Shown: positions 2 through 17,575 of the stretch, one piece after another | Layout: every line of letters begins with the position of its first letter | Position numbering within the stretch: the stretch's first letter is position 1 | Assembly (NCBI GenBank): GCA_017650905.1 | Contig: JAGCDZ010000054.1 | Coordinates: 1-36,026, forward strand | Direction: 5' to 3' | From: Prevotella sp. | GTDB lineage: Bacteria; Bacteroidota; Bacteroidia; Bacteroidales; Bacteroidaceae | Length of the DNA: 36,026 nt | Translations under genes and position numbers: made by a program | Notes under the pieces: generated by a model | Seen by the model: the letters and a program-made list of their open reading frames with translations, nothing else | Told to the model about the DNA's origin: nothing | The model's database searches: none

Positions 2-487
2 CATCTGGACGCCAAGCGCAATCACATCCATCGTTTCCGTGCGGAGCATCCTGATTTTGAATATCGTCCTTTAACGCCGGAATACTTTGACGAATGTCGC
101 CGACTTACGGAAATATGGTTGGGGGATAAAAATGCCAGCGATACCATAGATGTTGAAAAACAGGTGATGGAGACCATCTTTTCGAATTGGGACGCTCTCG
201 GCATGATAGGCGGAAGCATCTTCGTGGACGGTCGTATGGTGGCTTTCACATACGGCTCCGCTGTCACAACCGACACCTTTGACGTCTGTGTGGAGAAAGC
301 CGATCGCCATGTGGAGGGTGCTTTTACCATCATCAACCAGCAGTTCGCCGAGCATCTGCCTGAGCAATATGTCTATCTTAACCGCGAAGAAGATATGGGA
401 ATCCCAGGTCTTCGCCAAGCGAAATTGTCGTATCACCCAGAAATACTATTGACCTACAATGTCGTACATATTACAAAGAATGACTGA
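2..487 (+). CDS. DUF2156 protein, 3' part (5' end outside window)
   Basis: The reading frame is open from the left edge, so the gene begins upstream; the visible part encodes about 161 residues. The visible start HLDAKRNHIHRF, followed by EYRPLTPEYF, resembles the DUF2156 family, which is related to the C-terminal GNAT-like domain of phosphatidylglycerol lysyltransferases. Further family-like segments are GGSIFVDGRMVAFTYGS, YVYLNREEDMGIPGLRQAK and the C-terminal SYHPEILLTY. In Bacteroidota the substrate of these cytosolic proteins is generally unknown, so no reaction is assigned. The next gene starts inside this one, which suggests translational coupling. An internal TTG at 119 could be taken for a start, but the family-like sequence continues upstream of it. 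Confidence 0.85.
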   Translation, partial: HLDAKRNHIHRFRAEHPDFEYRPLTPEYFDECRRLTEIWLGDKNASDTIDVEKQVMETIFSNWDALGMIGGSIFVDGRMVAFTYGSAVTTDTFDVCVEKADRHVEGAFTIINQQFAEHLPEQYVYLNREEDMGIPGLRQAKLSYHPEILLTYNVVHITKND

Positions 488-941
488 AGATGACGCGCCG
501 TTGACCGTTGACTGGATGGTGCAACAATACGATTTTGACCGCGCTGAGGTGGAGTCATGGGTGCAGGACCTGCATTTCAACTGGCCGTTGAGTGTCAAGG
601 CCTTAGATGAAAACGGCCATGTCATTGGGCTGCTCAATATGAGTGATTATCGGATTGAGGAGGAAACGCCGCAGATCCTGAAAGACAAGCCGGAGCTGAT
701 TAAAAGCCTGAACGCTCAGCGGTATATCGCTGTCTTTTCGTTCATCGTGGCTGAAAAATATCGTGGTACCCGATTGAACTACGACATGCTGATGTCAATC
801 ATGTCTGAGTTGAAAACCAAATTCGATTTCATCTTTATTCCCGTGCTGTATCGCCTCAAGACTCATCAATACTGGCAACGCTGGGGTGCAAAAGAGTTTT
901 ACCACGATGAGGATTGCGTGTGTTACAAATTGGATATGTAA
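459..941 (+). CDS. GNAT-like acetyltransferase
   Basis: A 160-residue cytosolic protein resembling the GNAT N-acetyltransferase fold. A central strand (RYIAVFSFIVAEKYRGTR) sits where GNAT motif A, the acetyl-CoA pyrophosphate loop, would be. The usual R/Q-x-x-G-x-G/A is only partly kept (YRGTRLNY), so cofactor binding may be altered. The end (HQYWQRWGAKEFY, then CVCYKLDM) is the usual GNAT C-terminus. With the ATG at 459 it overlaps the DUF2156 gene by 29 bases; an in-frame ATG at 480 would shorten the overlap to 8 bases and is equally plausible. The substrate is unknown. Co-translation with a DUF2156 protein, itself GNAT-like, suggests the two act together. Confidence 0.75.
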   Translation: MSYILQRMTEDDAPLTVDWMVQQYDFDRAEVESWVQDLHFNWPLSVKALDENGHVIGLLNMSDYRIEEETPQILKDKPELIKSLNAQRYIAVFSFIVAEKYRGTRLNYDMLMSIMSELKTKFDFIFIPVLYRLKTHQYWQRWGAKEFYHDEDCVCYKLDM

Positions 942-1055: not shown

Positions 1056-1145
1056 CTATGCCTTGTGGTTGTAGTACTTGATGAACATGCCCACACCGAC
1101 GAAGGCCAGCAGGAACTCAAGGGCTACGATGAAAATGTATATCAT
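1056..1145 (-). CDS. 29-residue single-pass membrane microprotein
   Basis: A short frame with ATG (1143-1145) and TAG stop, encoding 29 residues. It starts 20 bases after the stop of the flavodoxin-like gene on the same strand and so lies in the same cobalamin-riboswitch transcript. Residues 2-22 form one hydrophobic helix (MIYIFIVALEF, then LLAFVGVGMFI) containing a single buried acidic residue, Glu10. The tail KYYNHKA is basic, which predicts a cytoplasmic C-terminus by the positive-inside rule. No known family is recognised. It could be a subunit or anchor for the flavodoxin-like partner or part of a small membrane complex, but the sequence does not show its function. Spacing, a clean start and stop and the membrane pattern support a real gene; chance cannot be ruled out at this length. 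Confidence 0.65.
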   Translation of the reverse strand: MIYIFIVALEFLLAFVGVGMFIKYYNHKA

Positions 1146-1165
1146 AATGGTTAAGTTTTGACGGG

Positions 1166-1567
1166 TTAAAGGTTCGGTGATACTGCGCACACCCAATTGT
1201 CGAGGTTCCACCCGGACGTGTCGGCATAGAGCTGGTCACCAACGATGTGCGCTCCGTTTTGTCTGAGCTCGCTATTGAACGCTTCGGCATAGATGCCATT
1301 GTCCTGACTATTGCCCAAGGCCACCATGACAGCGACATTCTTGCCACTCAGGCTGGCACCACGGAACATCTGGCAGGCGTACTGCCAATGGGGTGACAAC
1401 GGGCCATCGGCCTGAAACTCAACGGCAAGGACAAGACTCTGAGAGTTCTCAATCTGCCTGATGTTCATACTCTGGACGCTGACGGTCTCAGCCCCCAACT
1501 TGTCGGCTATCTCTTCAGCAATAGCCTGACAGCTGTCGTACACGACGACGATTGATTCATGTTTCAT
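1166..1567 (-). CDS. Flavodoxin-like protein lacking the usual FMN phosphate loop
   Basis: A 133-residue cytosolic protein with the order of secondary structure expected of a short-chain flavodoxin: strand 1 (ESIVVVYDS), helix 1 (AIAEEIADKLGA), then SGKNVAVMVALGNSQ and FNSELRQNGAHIVGD, matching the conserved GKxVAxFGLGD and LxxxGAxxVG parts of flavodoxins. The T/S-x-T-G-x-T phosphate loop that should follow strand 1 is missing: YDSCQAIA runs straight into the helix. The FMN-stacking Trp loop (PTWG) is replaced by VEFQADGPLS. FMN binding is therefore doubtful. Flavodoxins can reduce cobalamin for methionine synthase or for adenosylation, which would fit control by the upstream cobalamin riboswitch, but the degenerate loop means a redox role must not be assumed. 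A fold-sharing corrinoid-binding role is an alternative. Confidence 0.82.
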   Translation of the reverse strand: MKHESIVVVYDSCQAIAEEIADKLGAETVSVQSMNIRQIENSQSLVLAVEFQADGPLSPHWQYACQMFRGASLSGKNVAVMVALGNSQDNGIYAEAFNSELRQNGAHIVGDQLYADTSGWNLDNWVCAVSPNL

Positions 1568-1593
1568 ATCTCAATATCATTGAATAGTCGATG

Positions 1594-1628
1594 AAAAGGG
1601 GAAACGTTGTCTCACGACAGGCTGCCCC
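1594..1628 (-). promoter_or_regulatory. GC-rich hairpin before the flavodoxin-like gene, possible expression platform
   Basis: On the minus strand, GGGG and CCCC close a structured segment with an inner GTC/GAC helix and are followed by TTTT, about 26 bases before the ATG. It resembles an intrinsic terminator and could be the switch read by the cobalamin riboswitch. The inner helix is imperfect, so this is tentative. Confidence 0.35.
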
Positions 1629-1771
1629 GTAAAACTTATATAATAATACACGTATGCGCACAGTTGCGCTGATAAAAAGAGAGACTACAATGCATGACAG
1701 TCCTTCCTGGACATTATTCCATAAAAATATGCTTGCGCCTCACACCCTTACATCGAGGGTCGTTTGGCATG

Positions 1772-2018
1772 TTACCGACAAAGGCTGGTCTTCAGACTTT
1801 CCTCCACTCCCAAGCGCCTTCTCGAGCAAATACTCAATGGCGTGTTTTAGCGAGGGCAAAGCCGAATACATTCGAGCTTTGCAGAGCGTGAACGTCATCG
1901 AACGAAATTCAATGGCGTTTATGCTTAGGAGCCATAATGGAGTTCACTGCTGCGGGACAGTCGGGGATTCACACCCCAGTTCCCAATTAAGCACAGCTAA
2001 GTGCACCTTTACGGGTGA
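1772..2018 (-). promoter_or_regulatory. Cobalamin (B12) riboswitch
   Basis: Read on the minus strand, the segment shows the conserved cobalamin-aptamer blocks in order: GGTGC with a following GCTTAAT and GGGAAC (about 1979-2008); GGGGTGTGAATCCCC (about 1963-1977); CTGTCCCGCAGCAGTGA (about 1945-1961); a long variable P6 arm; and the B12 box AAGTCTGAAGACCAGCC (about 1783-1799), a close match to AGCCAGGAGACCTGCC. P1 can form between CCGTAAAGG (about 2006-2014) and CCTTTGTCGG (about 1775-1784). A hairpin just downstream (ACCCT/AGGGT, 1743-1759) may be the P13 arm. The flavodoxin-like gene starts about 200 bases downstream on the same strand. Known riboswitches of this class lower expression when cobalamin is abundant. 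The exact ends are approximate. Confidence 0.95.
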
Positions 2019-2038
2019 CTCTTTTCAGAATCACGATG

Positions 2039-2070
2039 CAAAGATAGTACAAATCGAGTGAAAAACCAAA
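2039..2070 (-). promoter_or_regulatory. Promoter of the cobalamin-riboswitch transcript
   Basis: On the minus strand the -7 box TATCTTTG (2039-2046) is preceded by TTTG (2067-2070) with exactly 20 bases between them, a full match to the Bacteroidota sigma-ABfr promoter. It lies about 20 bases upstream of the aptamer. Confidence 0.85.
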
Positions 2071-3577: not shown

Positions 3578-5974
3578 TTATTGATAGGTAATCTTCTGGA
3601 TAATCTGACCTGAATCAACAATCGAGAGGGTGATGACATGATTGTGACGAGCTTTGTCGAGAGGCTGTGTCACGACGAACTCCTTGCGGTTTTCGAGCAC
3701 TTGTATCTTCCACTCATCCCCCCACTCCTTGAAAATGTTCTCACAAACCTCTGCTTTACCATGATCTACGCTGACCGAGAAGCGGTTGCTGCGGTCGGTA
3801 GCCACAGGCCACATCGGAACCACGGAGATACAAAGTGAAATGGAATCAGCATTCTTGGGAAGTGTATTGACAGGGATGGCGATGTCGATACTTCCTGTGG
3901 TTTGCAAGTCAAGTGGCTGACCTAATTGGAGTGCTATCCAGTCGGTGCCGATACCTTCGAGCAAACGGAACGGCTCAGATACTTTGAGCGATGCAAGATC
4001 AATCTGATGGTGGTACTCAGGATGATGTTGACTATCGGGCAGACGATAGGCATCTGTTGGTTTGTCAGAATATTCCGGCATCTGGTGATAGAGTGCCGTA
4101 TAGCCAGGCGGCACTTCCGAAATCATCTGATTCCACTTGCCGTCGAGTTGCGTATTGTAGCGTTCCAGAAGTCTTTCTATTTCACGGCAGGCATCCTTCG
4201 ACTGCTCAGCATACAGACTATTGCCCGTTTCATGATTGGCCTGGGCATAGAGGAATTTACGGTTCATCTGGTAGGCGGAATGCACCGCATAGCCCAGCAT
4301 TTCGAAAAGAGCAGGTCGAAGTTCGGGCGACAGTTCACACTCTATGGCATCATAGGCAAAACAGATATCCTGATAGTCAGTCAACCGCTTCTGTGCAGTA
4401 CCCGTCTGGAAGGAGAAATCGGTATCGTGCAAACGACTGTTCTCCTCGCTATCCCACTCTATCTCATAGCCCATAAACTCAGGCTTACGATTCCAGGCCA
4501 AGCGATAGTAATTATCGAGGATAAACTGGAATGTCGGCAGGTGCTTCATACCAAACTCCTTGGCCAGCCATTTGGCCTGATAGTGGTTCACATTGTTATA
4601 GTTGAACGCTTTGAAGTCGTAGGCCATATCGAAAAAATGCTGCATTTCAATTTCCATCGGCTTGATGTCACCCACGTTGAGCAGCCAGTATCGGTCGGCA
4701 CCCGCATCGTAGGCTTTCTTCAGTTCCTCGTACATCAGCATAGGGGCAGTGGTCGGAATCCACAGATTATCGTGGGGCGTGCCGAGATAGGAGATATGAT
4801 AATACACACCGCTGTGTCCGTTGCGCCGTTGCTCTGCCGCGTTGCTCACCCGCTTCATATAGCCGTAATTGTCGTCTGGCCATACGAGGGTGATATCCTC
4901 CGGCACACGAAGACCTGTGTCATAGATGTCGAGTGTCTCCTTGTAGGGCACAAAGATCTGTGGCAGCTTATCGGCCTTCTTATGTTTGTATTTCACAAGA
5001 ATCTCGCGTTGTTTAGCAAAGACTTTTTCCAATGTACGGGCACGGTCTTTGGGGTCAGTACTTCCCTTCATTGCCTCGTCGTGCAGACCACGCATGCCCA
5101 TCGTATAGATATTGTCGTACTGGGCGGTCTCACGGATGCGGTCGTCGAGTTTCTTCAGGATGGTCGCACTATTGGTCTCATAGTTCCACTCGCCGTCACG
5201 TGCCTTGTCCCATTCCGAAGGTGCAGCATTGTTGAAGAGCAACGGTTCACAGTGGCTAGTAGTGATCATGATGCCCCACTTGTCGGCCATCTTCTGACTC
5301 TCAGGATGCGAATAAAAGGCACCTGTGCAGGTATGCATGGCCGGAGCGAGCATATTGCCCTTCAGGCGAAGGATCAGTTCGCAGACGCGGTCGTAAGTCT
5401 TGGGTCCAATATCGCCCAACTCTTTTTCAAAGGTCTTTGCCGACCAAGTCTTCAGGCCCCAGTCCTCATCGTTGATGAAGATGCCTCGATATTTCACGCT
5501 GGGCGACTGACTGACATAGTTCTCCACAAAGTCATAGACACGCTTGTTTGTCTTATCGATGGGTATATCGGCAAACCAGTACCACGGACTGACACCGATG
5601 GCCGCGCTCACATGTAGCACACCGTAAGCCAGACCACGCGCATCAGAGCCGGTAATGTATATATTACCATCCTTGGTGTCGATGGCATAGCGCTCCCAAG
5701 CACCCCGCAGTTCGCGGTGACGGCCAGTCTTCGCCAACGTACCAATATTAATGGCAACTCCACTGACCTTCCGGGTACTTATCCCTGGTCTCATGCCCGA
5801 AACGCGCTCGATGTCATCGGCCAATACCTGCGCCATCTGCTTCACCAGCGGCATGTCGCTATCATGATATACGATGGTTGCCTTGGTGAGATCCACAGAT
5901 GCCATCTTCTGTTGACCGTTCGCAAATCCTATTATCAGGAAGCACGCGATACAAGTAGTCAATATTCGCTTCAT
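3578..5974 (-). CDS. GH115 alpha-glucuronidase (first copy)
   Basis: A 798-residue exported glycoside hydrolase of family GH115, whose members remove glucuronic or 4-O-methylglucuronic acid side chains from xylan, including internal positions. A signal peptide (MKRILTTCIACFLIIGFANG) predicts export to the periplasm. Family-characteristic segments in order are YAIDTKDGNIYITGSDARG, GVSPWYWFADIPI, KYRGIFINDEDWGL, APAMHTCTG, TTSHCEPLLF, MGMRGLHDEAM, FVPYKE, VWPDDNYGYMKR and GVYYHISYLGTPHDN. The C-terminal region beyond about residue 640 matches the beta-rich domain of the family. Length is near the lower end of GH115 enzymes. It lies 48 bases downstream of the isomerase-like gene and shares its promoter. 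A second GH115 at 15305-17575 has the same motifs but differs widely outside them, so this is no recent duplication. Confidence 0.93.
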   Translation of the reverse strand: MKRILTTCIACFLIIGFANGQQKMASVDLTKATIVYHDSDMPLVKQMAQVLADDIERVSGMRPGISTRKVSGVAINIGTLAKTGRHRELRGAWERYAIDTKDGNIYITGSDARGLAYGVLHVSAAIGVSPWYWFADIPIDKTNKRVYDFVENYVSQSPSVKYRGIFINDEDWGLKTWSAKTFEKELGDIGPKTYDRVCELILRLKGNMLAPAMHTCTGAFYSHPESQKMADKWGIMITTSHCEPLLFNNAAPSEWDKARDGEWNYETNSATILKKLDDRIRETAQYDNIYTMGMRGLHDEAMKGSTDPKDRARTLEKVFAKQREILVKYKHKKADKLPQIFVPYKETLDIYDTGLRVPEDITLVWPDDNYGYMKRVSNAAEQRRNGHSGVYYHISYLGTPHDNLWIPTTAPMLMYEELKKAYDAGADRYWLLNVGDIKPMEIEMQHFFDMAYDFKAFNYNNVNHYQAKWLAKEFGMKHLPTFQFILDNYYRLAWNRKPEFMGYEIEWDSEENSRLHDTDFSFQTGTAQKRLTDYQDICFAYDAIECELSPELRPALFEMLGYAVHSAYQMNRKFLYAQANHETGNSLYAEQSKDACREIERLLERYNTQLDGKWNQMISEVPPGYTALYHQMPEYSDKPTDAYRLPDSQHHPEYHHQIDLASLKVSEPFRLLEGIGTDWIALQLGQPLDLQTTGSIDIAIPVNTLPKNADSISLCISVVPMWPVATDRSNRFSVSVDHGKAEVCENIFKEWGDEWKIQVLENRKEFVVTQPLDKARHNHVITLSIVDSGQIIQKITYQ

Positions 5975-15304: not shown

Positions 15305-17575
15305 TCATAAAAGCCGTTCCTCTGGGCTGAGATTCATCATCCACTGATCAGCGATGATATGGTCATCGATGGCTTTAAGCCTCAGTGTATGCCAGCCTTT
15401 CGATAATGATATTGAGGTTGCCTTCAGCGCCTGACCGGTCAACACGTTCTGCTTCCAGGATTCCGAGCGGAATTTCTCCTTCAACGAGATGATGACGGGA
15501 GCAGCATCGTCCATCTGAACAGCGTAGCGCAAGTCACCCTTGTCGTAGGGCTGCGTGGGTATCATAGCCGTGAGAAGCGTGGCATTGCCCTCCTTTTCAA
15601 CATTGAAACGGAATGTCAGTTCACCACCCTTGGGAATGGCTACAGCATTCATCGAATGCCCTAACATCTGGATAGGTTGACAACCCGCCGAAGCCTCTGT
15701 GTAATCGCAGGCATTACAAGCAATCAGGGTATTGAAAGGTTCTCCCTTTAGTTTAGCATAAGCATCATAAAATACTGGTAATCTGCGTGGTGCGGCATCC
15801 ATCAGGCCACGCCACTTACCATCTTTCATATCGTTGTATTGTCTGGTCAGCGATTGTATCTCCTCATAGGCACGATGACTTTCAATAGAGTCGCTGAGTA
15901 TCTTACGGTTCATGGCCGCAGCAGCAAAGACAGGGTATTCGACAGCGGCAAAAAAGGCATCCTTCAACTGTGGACGGATCAGTGGACGGCTGTTGGCTAC
16001 GATAGCCTTGATACGTTCGAAATCAGCGATACGGACAGCAGCCTCTTGAGGCGTCATGGGAACATCTGTTACCGTCGACAAGCCACGGGGATACACCTTC
16101 TTATCAAGTTCCACCTGTGTCCATCCCATAAACTCCGGCTTGCGGATGGCGCAAAGACGATAGAATTCCTGCATAGCAGGAAAAAGCCGTTTGCCTGCCT
16201 CTTCACCAAACTGCCTGCAAAGCCAGCGCTCCAGATGCTGATTAATGGTCGTGGGCGTGATGCTGTTGATGTCCCATGCCATATCCATGAAAAACTCCAG
16301 GTCATAGGCAGCCACTTTCGGGTCGTGTACATTCGCAATCCACAGTTTCCGGCAGTTGTGGTCGTAGGCCGCTTTCATCTCCGTATAGATGAGTCCCGGC
16401 TGTGTCGTGGTGAGCCAAAGATAGTCATGAGGACGGCCCCAATAACTCAGATGGTAATAAATGCCGCCCCCACCCTTGCGTAACTGCTCCTTGGCATCAG
16501 AAAGACGCGTCAGATAGCCATAGTTGTCGTCACACCACATCAGCGTCACATAGTCAGGAATCTGCAAGCCCTTTTCGTACAGTTGCAGCACCTCTTTGTA
16601 AGGCACGAACATCTGCATTTGCCGGGCAGGATCGCCTATATATGTCCGAATCAGTTTCTGTTGATCGTCAATGACCTGCTGTAATCCCTCAAACTTCTCC
16701 TCTTCTGTCTGGTATCCTTCCATCGAACTATCATGGATGCCACGCATGCCGATGGTAAACATATTGTTCTTCGACCCCTTTACGGCCTGAAGCCGCTCTA
16801 TCCAATACCGTTGTACAGCCTCGCGATTGGTGCGGTAGTTAAAGGCACCCCTTTCTTTGACATCCCACTCGCCGACATTATTCCGCAGTAGCGGTTCACA
16901 ATGGGAAGTGCCTATGACGATGCCACAACTGTCGGCCATCGCTTTCGCCCCAGACGTCTGGAAGAAGGCCACCGTTCCCTCATGCATGGCAGGCCAAATG
17001 GCATTGGCACGAAGACGCAGCAGGAGTTCGAATATTCTGCGATAGGTCTTAGGGCCTATCTGGCCTTTCGGTCCTGACTCAAAGGCATGGCCCCACGGAC
17101 GCAGGCTCCAGTCTTCGTCATTCAGGAAAATGCCGCGATACGCCACACTGGGCTGCTGTTCGGTTGTATAGTCGCTATCGACGGTCAGTAGGTCTTTCCT
17201 CTCCGGCACCACATCACCCCACCATATCCATGGCGACACACCGGCCATCCGCGAGAGCTCCAGCAGACCGTAAGCCATCCCTCGTCCGTTGTTACCCTCT
17301 ACGACAATCTGCCCGTCCTTGACGTAAATACGAAAGCCGTCGTCTACACCTCTACCCTGCACCACTCTGACAGCAGGTCTTGCAGAAGCAATGGGCGTCA
17401 GGCCCGTCACCTGCCGCATATCGCCCTTCCACATGTCAAGTGCGATCTGCACCACAGGTTCCACCTGCTTCGGCACGCTATAGGTGATCGGATGCTTGCC
17501 GTCGAACCACACCACCTGCGCCATCGCGCTAAGCGATAGGAGCATCAAAGCTAAAACCAAAGCAGACTTTCTCAT
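15305..17575 (-). CDS. GH115 alpha-glucuronidase (second copy)
   Basis: A 756-residue exported GH115 enzyme expected to remove (methyl)glucuronic acid from xylan. The signal peptide MRKSALVLALMLLSLSAMAQ begins at the ATG at 17575; an upstream in-frame ATG at 17605 lies inside the -7 box and is rejected. Family segments in order: FRIYVKDGQIVVEG, GVSPWIWWGDVVPE, YRGIFLNDEDWSL, WPAMHEGT, GTSHCEPLL, IGMRGIHDSSM, FVPYKEVL, MWCDDNYGYLTR and IYYHLSYWGRPHDYLW. Outside these it differs widely from the copy at 3578-5974, so the two probably prefer different xylan contexts. It is preceded by three stacked promoters in a tandem repeat, which suggests strong or layered transcription. The kinase pair follows on the same strand after about 196 bases with its own -7 box. 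Confidence 0.93.
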   Translation of the reverse strand: MRKSALVLALMLLSLSAMAQVVWFDGKHPITYSVPKQVEPVVQIALDMWKGDMRQVTGLTPIASARPAVRVVQGRGVDDGFRIYVKDGQIVVEGNNGRGMAYGLLELSRMAGVSPWIWWGDVVPERKDLLTVDSDYTTEQQPSVAYRGIFLNDEDWSLRPWGHAFESGPKGQIGPKTYRRIFELLLRLRANAIWPAMHEGTVAFFQTSGAKAMADSCGIVIGTSHCEPLLRNNVGEWDVKERGAFNYRTNREAVQRYWIERLQAVKGSKNNMFTIGMRGIHDSSMEGYQTEEEKFEGLQQVIDDQQKLIRTYIGDPARQMQMFVPYKEVLQLYEKGLQIPDYVTLMWCDDNYGYLTRLSDAKEQLRKGGGGIYYHLSYWGRPHDYLWLTTTQPGLIYTEMKAAYDHNCRKLWIANVHDPKVAAYDLEFFMDMAWDINSITPTTINQHLERWLCRQFGEEAGKRLFPAMQEFYRLCAIRKPEFMGWTQVELDKKVYPRGLSTVTDVPMTPQEAAVRIADFERIKAIVANSRPLIRPQLKDAFFAAVEYPVFAAAAMNRKILSDSIESHRAYEEIQSLTRQYNDMKDGKWRGLMDAAPRRLPVFYDAYAKLKGEPFNTLIACNACDYTEASAGCQPIQMLGHSMNAVAIPKGGELTFRFNVEKEGNATLLTAMIPTQPYDKGDLRYAVQMDDAAPVIISLKEKFRSESWKQNVLTGQALKATSISLSKGWHTLRLKAIDDHIIADQWMMNLSPEERLL

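Follow-up and report, generated by a model that had tools for sequence, protein, structure and literature searches.

What does a cobalamin (vitamin B12) riboswitch control when the only genes behind it code for a flavodoxin-like protein and a membrane microprotein of 29 amino acids (aa)? We considered this question for the minus strand at positions 1056-2070 of a contig of Prevotella sp. (JAGCDZ010000054.1, assembly GCA_017650905.1), of which the whole stretch analysed, 36,026 nucleotides (nt) long, is called here the window. A first-pass annotation of this DNA had described the riboswitch and the two genes and had proposed that they handle cobalamin scarcity, for example by electron transfer. 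That observation holds better than its interpretation: the reading as an adaptation to B12 scarcity stands, the one as an electron carrier falls, and the more surprising part of the transcript is a candidate antisense seed in its leader, a conserved element that the annotation overlooked together with the terminator-like hairpin behind it. We propose, with a probability of roughly 0.5, that one such seed has spread across the B12 regulon of Prevotella, that through it a B12 sensor acting in cis would switch the propionate pathway in trans, and that the same transcripts may encode a flavodoxin mimic without flavin and a membrane microprotein, both parts of the response to B12 scarcity. For positions 1056-2070 of the window, the chances are about even that they form one riboswitch-led transcription unit with both an RNA output and a protein output. 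The features of this candidate unit, in the direction of transcription, are the following.

2039-2070, minus strand: promoter, with the box TATCTTTG at 2039-2046 and TTG 20 nt upstream of it (from the sequence).
1766-2025, minus strand: cobalamin riboswitch aptamer (RF00174, 72.7 bits, E 3.1e-16).
1949-1962, minus strand: C-rich loop region of the aptamer, GACUGUCCCGCAGC, candidate pseudoknot partner in relatives (from the sequence).
1834-1918, minus strand: insert of about 75 nt in the aptamer, with the flanking direct repeat ACGCCATTGA (in four of the five first loci; missing in genome G018).
1737-1768, minus strand: P13-like hairpin with the conserved loop CGAUGUA, directly 3' of the aptamer.
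1674-1703, minus strand: hairpin and U-run, possible terminator between aptamer and seed (suggested by eye).
1631-1653, minus strand: conserved element ACGUGUAUUAUUAUAUAAGUUUU, candidate trans-acting antisense seed (pattern search and duplex energies).
1594-1628, minus strand: terminator-like hairpin with a GNRA loop and a U-run, behind the seed (covariation in relatives).
1166-1567, minus strand: flavodoxin-like gene, 133 aa, without the phosphate loop for flavin mononucleotide (FMN) (list of open reading frames (ORFs), profiles, selection).
1056-1145, minus strand: gene of a microprotein with a single transmembrane helix, 29 aa, with an invariant Glu10 and, in most copies, a C-terminal YYNHK motif (ORF list, selection).

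The long leaders of flavodoxin-like loci and other B12 loci have in common the sequence ACGUGUAUUAUUAUAUAAGUUU, followed by a hairpin with a GNRA loop (38 of 45 collected elements) and often by a U-run (29 of those 38). Precisely, a hairpin of at least 3 pairs was required, by which rule 7 of the 45 fail, and some of the 38 look mis-assigned (L168, L182-L184; L and G numbers are our own labels for loci and genomes). The hairpin covaries, with double changes in 9 of 15 predicted pairs among the 23 sequences, out of the 45, that formed the covariation sample; L080, L134, L140 and L241 were removed before alignment. A generic terminator scan missed both hairpins of the leader. Because the 45 elements came from loci fetched mostly for their riboswitches, specificity was measured solely by a pattern search in 56 genomes, 37 of which had been chosen for carrying the flavodoxin-like gene. 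The 19-nt core of the seed gave here, with at most one mismatch, 39 sites in 34 of the genomes, and the pattern read backwards gave 0. Twenty-one sites lie 38-158 nt behind an aptamer match, and 15 are farther off, 1.6-5.4 kb downstream of a match on their own strand; two belong to loci of G013 in which the aptamer is cut by the contig end (its 3' half was recognised by eye), and one lies elsewhere. With up to 2 mismatches there is one copy in the window's own genome, on which ground a genome-wide repeat was rejected; a coding stretch was rejected as well, since the indels of the element do not come in threes (judged by eye).

In seven orphan riboswitches (L116, L122, L125, L127, L132, L136 and L179) the 1 kb behind aptamer, seed and terminator-like hairpin holds no gene on the same strand that convinces, the doubtful ORFs being one of 80 aa that overlaps the element in L179 and one of 112 aa opposite a longer gene in L125. 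These seven look like B12-gated small RNAs and are candidates for such; the window differs from them in that its RNA carries two ORFs. One of them, L125:501-624, has a weak full-length match with BTnc231 (RF04180; E 0.0016), an RNA of Bacteroides thetaiotaomicron that the accessible part of PMC7366714 describes as validated by Northern blot, with a start site and an intrinsic terminator. The score of 27 bits is far under the gathering score of 80.4, so that membership in this family does not follow, and in the window RF04180 was not listed at E up to 5.

The outlying seed site is the one that suggests a target. It lies in G035 on the opposite strand of mutA, the gene for the small subunit of methylmalonyl-CoA mutase, a B12-dependent enzyme; there, just upstream of the start codon, the complement consists of 18 Watson-Crick pairs and no others, from -23 to -6. 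In G646 this complement recurs in the mutA leader (gene identified by TIGR00642), where a single bulged base divides it into 10 + 9 pairs at -30 to -12. We computed the duplex energies of the seed with 895 start regions, mostly of B12 loci plus 400 kb of G646, a stretch that was picked by guesswork, following how the genes of X. ruminicola 23T are numbered, and contained both of its loci described here; the mean was -6.2 kcal/mol with a standard deviation of 2.2. With the consensus seed the mutA of G035 ranked 2 of 895 (-19.4 kcal/mol) and that of G646 ranked 4 (-15.3 kcal/mol), or 3 (-17.4 kcal/mol) with the window's seed. Rank 1 (-22.1 kcal/mol) was held by an oadG-like gene of G646, whose OAD_gamma domain scores above its cut-off and whose lamin-tail domain scores below, and which comes first in an operon that also includes a biotin carrier and the beta subunit of a sodium-pump decarboxylase; by the naming used in PMC11575231, this oadG-mmdC-mmdB-type operon would be methylmalonyl-CoA decarboxylase. 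All three target sites are on the antisense strand and fall into the stretch from -36 to -6 relative to the start codon, and within G646 the mutA and the oadG-type gene, about 266 kb apart, are the top 2 of 253 start regions. Ranks 3 (L128) and 5 (L168) of the 895 are genes that themselves stand behind B12 riboswitches.

This complementarity exceeds the controls. Three reversed seeds placed both mutA genes at ranks 55-732, and three reverse-complement seeds at 299-622. Among 5000 dinucleotide-shuffled seeds, 1, 2 and 0 reached the observed energy at the mutA of G035, the mutA of G646 and oadG, respectively, and 0 reached it at two of these sites. For the same sites in the same order, the best-pairing 24-nt segment of aptamer and leader that avoids the seed gave -13.3, -7.7 and -14.4 kcal/mol, versus -19.4, -17.4 and -22.1 kcal/mol for the seed. 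MutA was also sought in viral contigs as a source of further leaders, and none was found there.

The mechanism that we propose would work as follows. With B12 scarce the unit would be on, by the classical off-switch logic of B12 riboswitches, and the riboswitch transcripts would extend through the seed, which would be made alike from riboswitch leaders, from operon-internal sites and from gene-less riboswitch RNAs. It would then base-pair in trans with the start regions of mutA and oadG and repress the B12-dependent branch from succinate to propionate, hence the branch would be held down and succinate would be the end product. With B12 plentiful the riboswitch would keep the seed from functioning, whether through termination, masking or decay, and the branch would be released. 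Taken by itself, the action of the riboswitch RNAs as trans antisense on mutA and oadG is a candidate role to which we give slightly better than even odds; the accumulation of the RNA, the repression by pairing, the direction of the B12 effect and the role of both proteins are what we infer.

The proposal fits the published cobalamin response of mutA, mutB, mmdB, mmdC and oadG. As far as the accessible text of PMC11575231 goes, both the transcripts and the proteins of mutA and mutB are more abundant with cobalamin in X. ruminicola KHP1 (log2 1.3-1.7), mmdB, mmdC and oadG are slightly up at transcript level, and a PduO-type gene is also up; the strain has four riboswitches, none near these genes, and the authors (2024) say that the mechanism is not known. 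If the proposal is true, distant B12 riboswitches that gate an antisense seed would explain the cobalamin rise of methylmalonyl-CoA mutase in rumen Xylanibacter/Prevotella, and there would be a direct route from the vitamin to rumen propionate, with a base-pairing trans mode added to riboswitch-controlled RNAs. As a separate observation, at the end of a BtuB operon on the minus strand of L107 there is a 161-aa ORF that resembles, by eye, a PduO-type adenosyltransferase; its complementarity to the seed places it seventh among the 895.

Other explanations of the element have to be weighed against trans antisense action. B12 operons would require an expression platform, and the element could be just this, or an intercistronic attenuator, or the DNA or RNA site of a regulator protein, in which case the match at mutA and oadG would be a reversed shared site or chance and no RNA would act in trans. 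The 21 of 39 sites that stand in leaders directly behind the aptamer agree with it, as do the sense orientation and covariation of the GNRA hairpin behind 38 of 45 elements; yet it sits badly with the 15 sites 1.6-5.4 kb behind an aptamer, with the seven orphans that carry the element without a convincing gene, with the antisense strand and start-codon position of all three target sites and with the one-base insertion in the mutA site of G646, which suits a bulge in a duplex better than a protein site. We consider it a possible but rather unlikely account. Considerably less probable is that the riboswitch RNA sequesters an antiterminator that binds RNA, in the manner of EutX/Rli55 and EutV, the operon-internal copies being the protein's targets: a short conserved hairpin with a terminator-like hairpin, in orphan RNAs and in operons, resembles the EutX/Rli55 layout (accessible text of PMC6317780), but the antisense matches at mutA and oadG would be left unexplained. 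For the antisense seed, in turn, several observations count as difficulties. The target sites read are three, in G035 and G646; those of G646 were scored with the consensus or the window's seed, and the copy that G035 itself carries (L171) forms a weaker duplex (-14.8 kcal/mol, rank 5). Of the 56 genomes, 1 has an antisense site at mutA when up to one mismatch is allowed; if the link is general, pairing elsewhere would therefore have to be shorter or diverged. The oadG-type operon could encode another sodium-pump decarboxylase, as the beta subunit alone passes its curated cut-off. The whole leader folds no better than shuffles (z -0.67), and in the predicted fold the seed is partly paired, with a mean unpaired probability of 0.47. 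Moreover, in 27 of the 41 flavodoxin-like loci where the leader was measurable it is short and lacks the seed; the seed therefore does not belong to the function of the pair itself. Lastly, the authors of the KHP1 study regard the changes in expression as minor and prefer to explain propionate production by post-translational control (PMC11575231, accessible text).

The protein output raises rivals of its own. We tentatively suppose, as a minority view among the possibilities, that the flavodoxin paralogue and the one-helix microprotein would serve corrinoid acquisition or adaptation to B12 scarcity through protein contacts and not through electron transfer. The first-pass annotation had instead offered a substitute electron carrier or a cob(II)alamin reductase, and the ancestry of the protein speaks for this: its closest relatives outside its own family are FldA-like proteins of the genus (27-38% identity), it matches the profile flav_long (E 1.5e-9) and the solved flavodoxin 8snz (E 6.8e-10), and descent from a long-chain flavodoxin is clear from these comparisons. 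However, the phosphate-binding loop [ST]-x-[ST]-G-x-[TSC] is present in 0 of 49 members in one alignment and in 0 of 30 in another, and the alignment rows displayed have a 4-residue deletion in this loop and have lost the loop tryptophan and the FldA long-chain insertion. Judged from its sequence, the paralogue should not be able to bind FMN. With motif, tryptophan and insertion lost, a substitute electron carrier is therefore unlikely, and the scores of Pfam flavodoxin (21.5 bits versus a cut-off of 25) and TIGR01752 (37.6 versus 146.75), both below the curated cut-offs, also went against the claim, to which we leave very little probability. A direct part of the pair in corrinoid uptake, with the microprotein as a small transporter subunit and the flavodoxin-like protein as its cytoplasmic partner or a corrinoid binder, is compatible with the RNA role and deserves a tentative place; corrinoid capture, named at first pass, is possible. 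In favour of such a part, the operon of L080 begins with the pair and also contains a TonB-dependent receptor and two CobB/CobQ-type enzymes, the microprotein can stand alone behind a riboswitch or outlast the flavodoxin-like gene (loci given below), and CbiK is found in 27 of 37 genomes with the gene versus 13 of 43 without, a statistic that ignores relatedness. Such a part is made doubtful by most copies standing alone among unrelated genes and by a microprotein that matches no family and no solved structure.

Seen from FldA of Prevotella, the ancestral family, the paralogue differs in being 133 aa long and in the losses just described. An FldA-like protein occurs also in the window's own genome (L030), and near the paralogue in several relatives. 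FldA-like proteins with the phosphate-loop motif were found for 37 of 39 loci; they were picked by the same motif, so that the comparison is partly circular, which the absence of the motif in the paralogue is not. In the tree 28 main members form one clade on a long stem (support 100/100), and the diverged members L145 and L178, which keep the length of the loop and not its motif, fall outside it on a long branch of unsure placement. At L058, L074, L078, L079, L081 and L095 a second FldA-like flavodoxin stands with a DUF2023 gene, and often a methyltransferase, a few kb from the flavodoxin-like gene; these neighbours were assigned by clusters, with a Pfam check on L058 only.

Precedents exist for parts of the proposed RNA function. 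In EutX/Rli55 of Firmicutes, too, a B12 aptamer gates a trans-regulating RNA and B12 switches the action of the RNA off; there the RNA sequesters the protein EutV (PMC6317780, accessible text), whereas here the complementarity is antisense to mRNA starts. The element here is also spread over leaders, downstream operon sites and orphans, unlike in that system. The B12-controlled antisense RNA of Listeria is presumably encoded opposite its target, whereas here the targets lie elsewhere in the genome. It shares with the proposed RNA the control by a B12 riboswitch, and its targets, the propanediol genes, are highest with B12 (PMC11575231, accessible text). On a B12-gated RNA acting on methylmalonyl-CoA mutase, and on a flavodoxin-like gene behind a B12 riboswitch, nothing was found in the portion of the open-access literature searched, which says nothing of other literature. 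The btu loci of Bacteroidetes (BtuB, BtuG, BtuH) resemble the pair in being a B12-riboswitch regulon, for corrinoid uptake; in a word search of PMC8941943 and PMC12751083, unlike here, flavodoxin has 0 occurrences.

The gene pair itself is almost certainly a conserved one under B12 regulation, going by its arrangement and evolution. A complete B12 aptamer with its own promoter, as first described, was borne out: the covariance search matched positions 1-189 of the model, complete, at 72.7 bits versus a gathering score of 31.5, and this is the 1 match above cut-off in the window's own genome (2.9 Mb, 71.6% complete). We take TATCTTTG with the upstream TTG to be the Bacteroidetes -7/-33 promoter consensus; the TAnnTTTG box is present in the 3 compared relatives whose sequence extends that far. 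The flavodoxin-like gene was found in 37 of 398 genomes of the genus, as 39 copies (E <= 1e-20), and in a family-wide sample of 301 genomes none was found outside the genus at comparable score. Hence the arrangement is not unique to this genome and recurs in relatives of the genus. An RF00174 match above gathering score lies upstream on the same strand of 31 of the 39 copies, in 3 of them with an intervening transporter gene; of the other 8, 6 are truncated by contig ends, 1 has a sub-threshold match (27.1 bits) and 1 (L066) has no match in 585 nt upstream. Behind 32 of the 39 copies lies a microprotein ORF of the same strand (in L075 much diverged); it is divergent, upstream of the riboswitch, in L087 and L089, the locus is cut or broken in L088 and L091, and it is missing in L068, L085 and L086.

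Both ORFs are under purifying selection. For 25 microprotein ORFs the proportion of synonymous differences (pS) was 0.68 and that of nonsynonymous ones (pN) 0.16, versus pS of 0.24 and 0.14 and pN of 0.28 and 0.32 in the other two frames, and 20 flavodoxin-like genes gave pS 0.56 and pN 0.15. In these 20 genes, four-fold degenerate sites differ in 13-26% of pairs over codons 1-48 (window 1424-1567) and in 43-61% over codons 49-132; the low divergence of the early codons would mean either a nucleotide-level constraint extending into the gene or a recombined module of riboswitch and N-terminus. In named genomes the locus turned up 58 times, always under the title Prevotella, Xylanibacter, Prevotellaceae, Bacteroidaceae or Bacteroidales, with many ruminant-gut assemblies among them; isolates that carry it include Xylanibacter ruminicola Ga6B6 and D31d and Prevotella tc2-28 and ne3005. 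A flavin-less flavodoxin with a 29-aa membrane partner would be a conserved, uncharacterised part of the B12 regulon that cultured strains carry.

That the transcript consists only of these two genes, as first stated, applies to the window, where the same strand beyond the microprotein, up to the convergent gene at 459-941 (plus strand), has no convincing further gene, only short mechanical ORFs; it does not apply to all relatives. L080 has, in this order, a riboswitch, the flavodoxin-like gene, the microprotein gene, a TonB-dependent receptor and two CobB/CobQ-type amidotransferases; an operon of riboswitch, receptor and CbiK runs divergently from it. In L085, L086, L087 and L145 a transporter of 501-521 aa, which in L085 is of the citrate/sodium-sulphate type (Pfam), stands between riboswitch and flavodoxin-like gene. 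A fifth transporter, of the citrate/dicarboxylate type, follows a riboswitch and an ORF that resembles, by eye, a corrinoid adenosyltransferase (L113:783-2833); a succinate exporter of this kind, its substrate being putative, would make sense without B12. Downstream of 129 riboswitch matches in the 56 genomes, the flavodoxin-like family is the fourth largest cluster (31 ORFs), after BtuB and other TonB receptor-like proteins (84), BtuG-like ones (41, by eye) and CbiK (33), ranks that are not a fair sample because of the choice of 37 genomes mentioned above. Meth_synt_2 (MetE family) was found in 0 of 37 genomes with the gene and in 3 of 43 without. This gene context points to B12, and with the aptamer and the two-gene unit it sustains the original link of the pair to the vitamin.

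For the microprotein, a single helix is supported by the best 19-residue hydropathy of 2.5-3.0 in 21 of 21 sequences; Glu10 is invariant in the alignment and the tail is basic. It stands alone behind a riboswitch in L274, and likewise in L272, where the aptamer is truncated by the contig end; L269 and L270 retain an intact riboswitch and microprotein, although an internal deletion has ruined their flavodoxin-like gene. Going by these loci, the microprotein does not depend on the flavodoxin-like gene. In L087, L089, L271, L273 and L277 it is divergent and a LysR regulator lies downstream of the flavodoxin-like gene; L271 and L277 are near-copies, each with a second micro-like ORF.

The leaders fall into two kinds. 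Over 48 loci the distance from aptamer to gene is about 70 nt in 27 and about 200-260 nt in 14 (window included), and in 7 it was unmeasurable. We examined 22 short-leader loci for pairing of the C-rich loop: 13 reach 8 bp with a site that stops 1 nt short of the ATG (0-1% of shuffles do as well), 4 have 6 bp, 4 have 5 bp, and 1 has no pairing there. Such pairing beside the ATG makes a translational off-switch plausible in short leaders. In 10 long-leader loci the pairing is 4-9 bp and distant from the ATG, and in the window it has decayed to chance level (4 bp, reached by 98% of shuffles). An L5-L13 kissing contact via the CGAUGUA loop was rejected, as no convincing pairing was seen (by eye only).

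The aptamer of the window is 260 nt long because of the insert of about 75 nt in a peripheral stem. A dispersed repeat was rejected as its origin, the insert being single-copy in the window's own genome, and a counterpart was also seen at L092:4106-4290. Elsewhere in the window there are a GH115-family gene at 3578-5974 and a second gene at 15305-17575, the N-terminus of which resembles a neighbour of the GH115 cluster in L092; together they look like a xylan-degradation region unrelated to B12.

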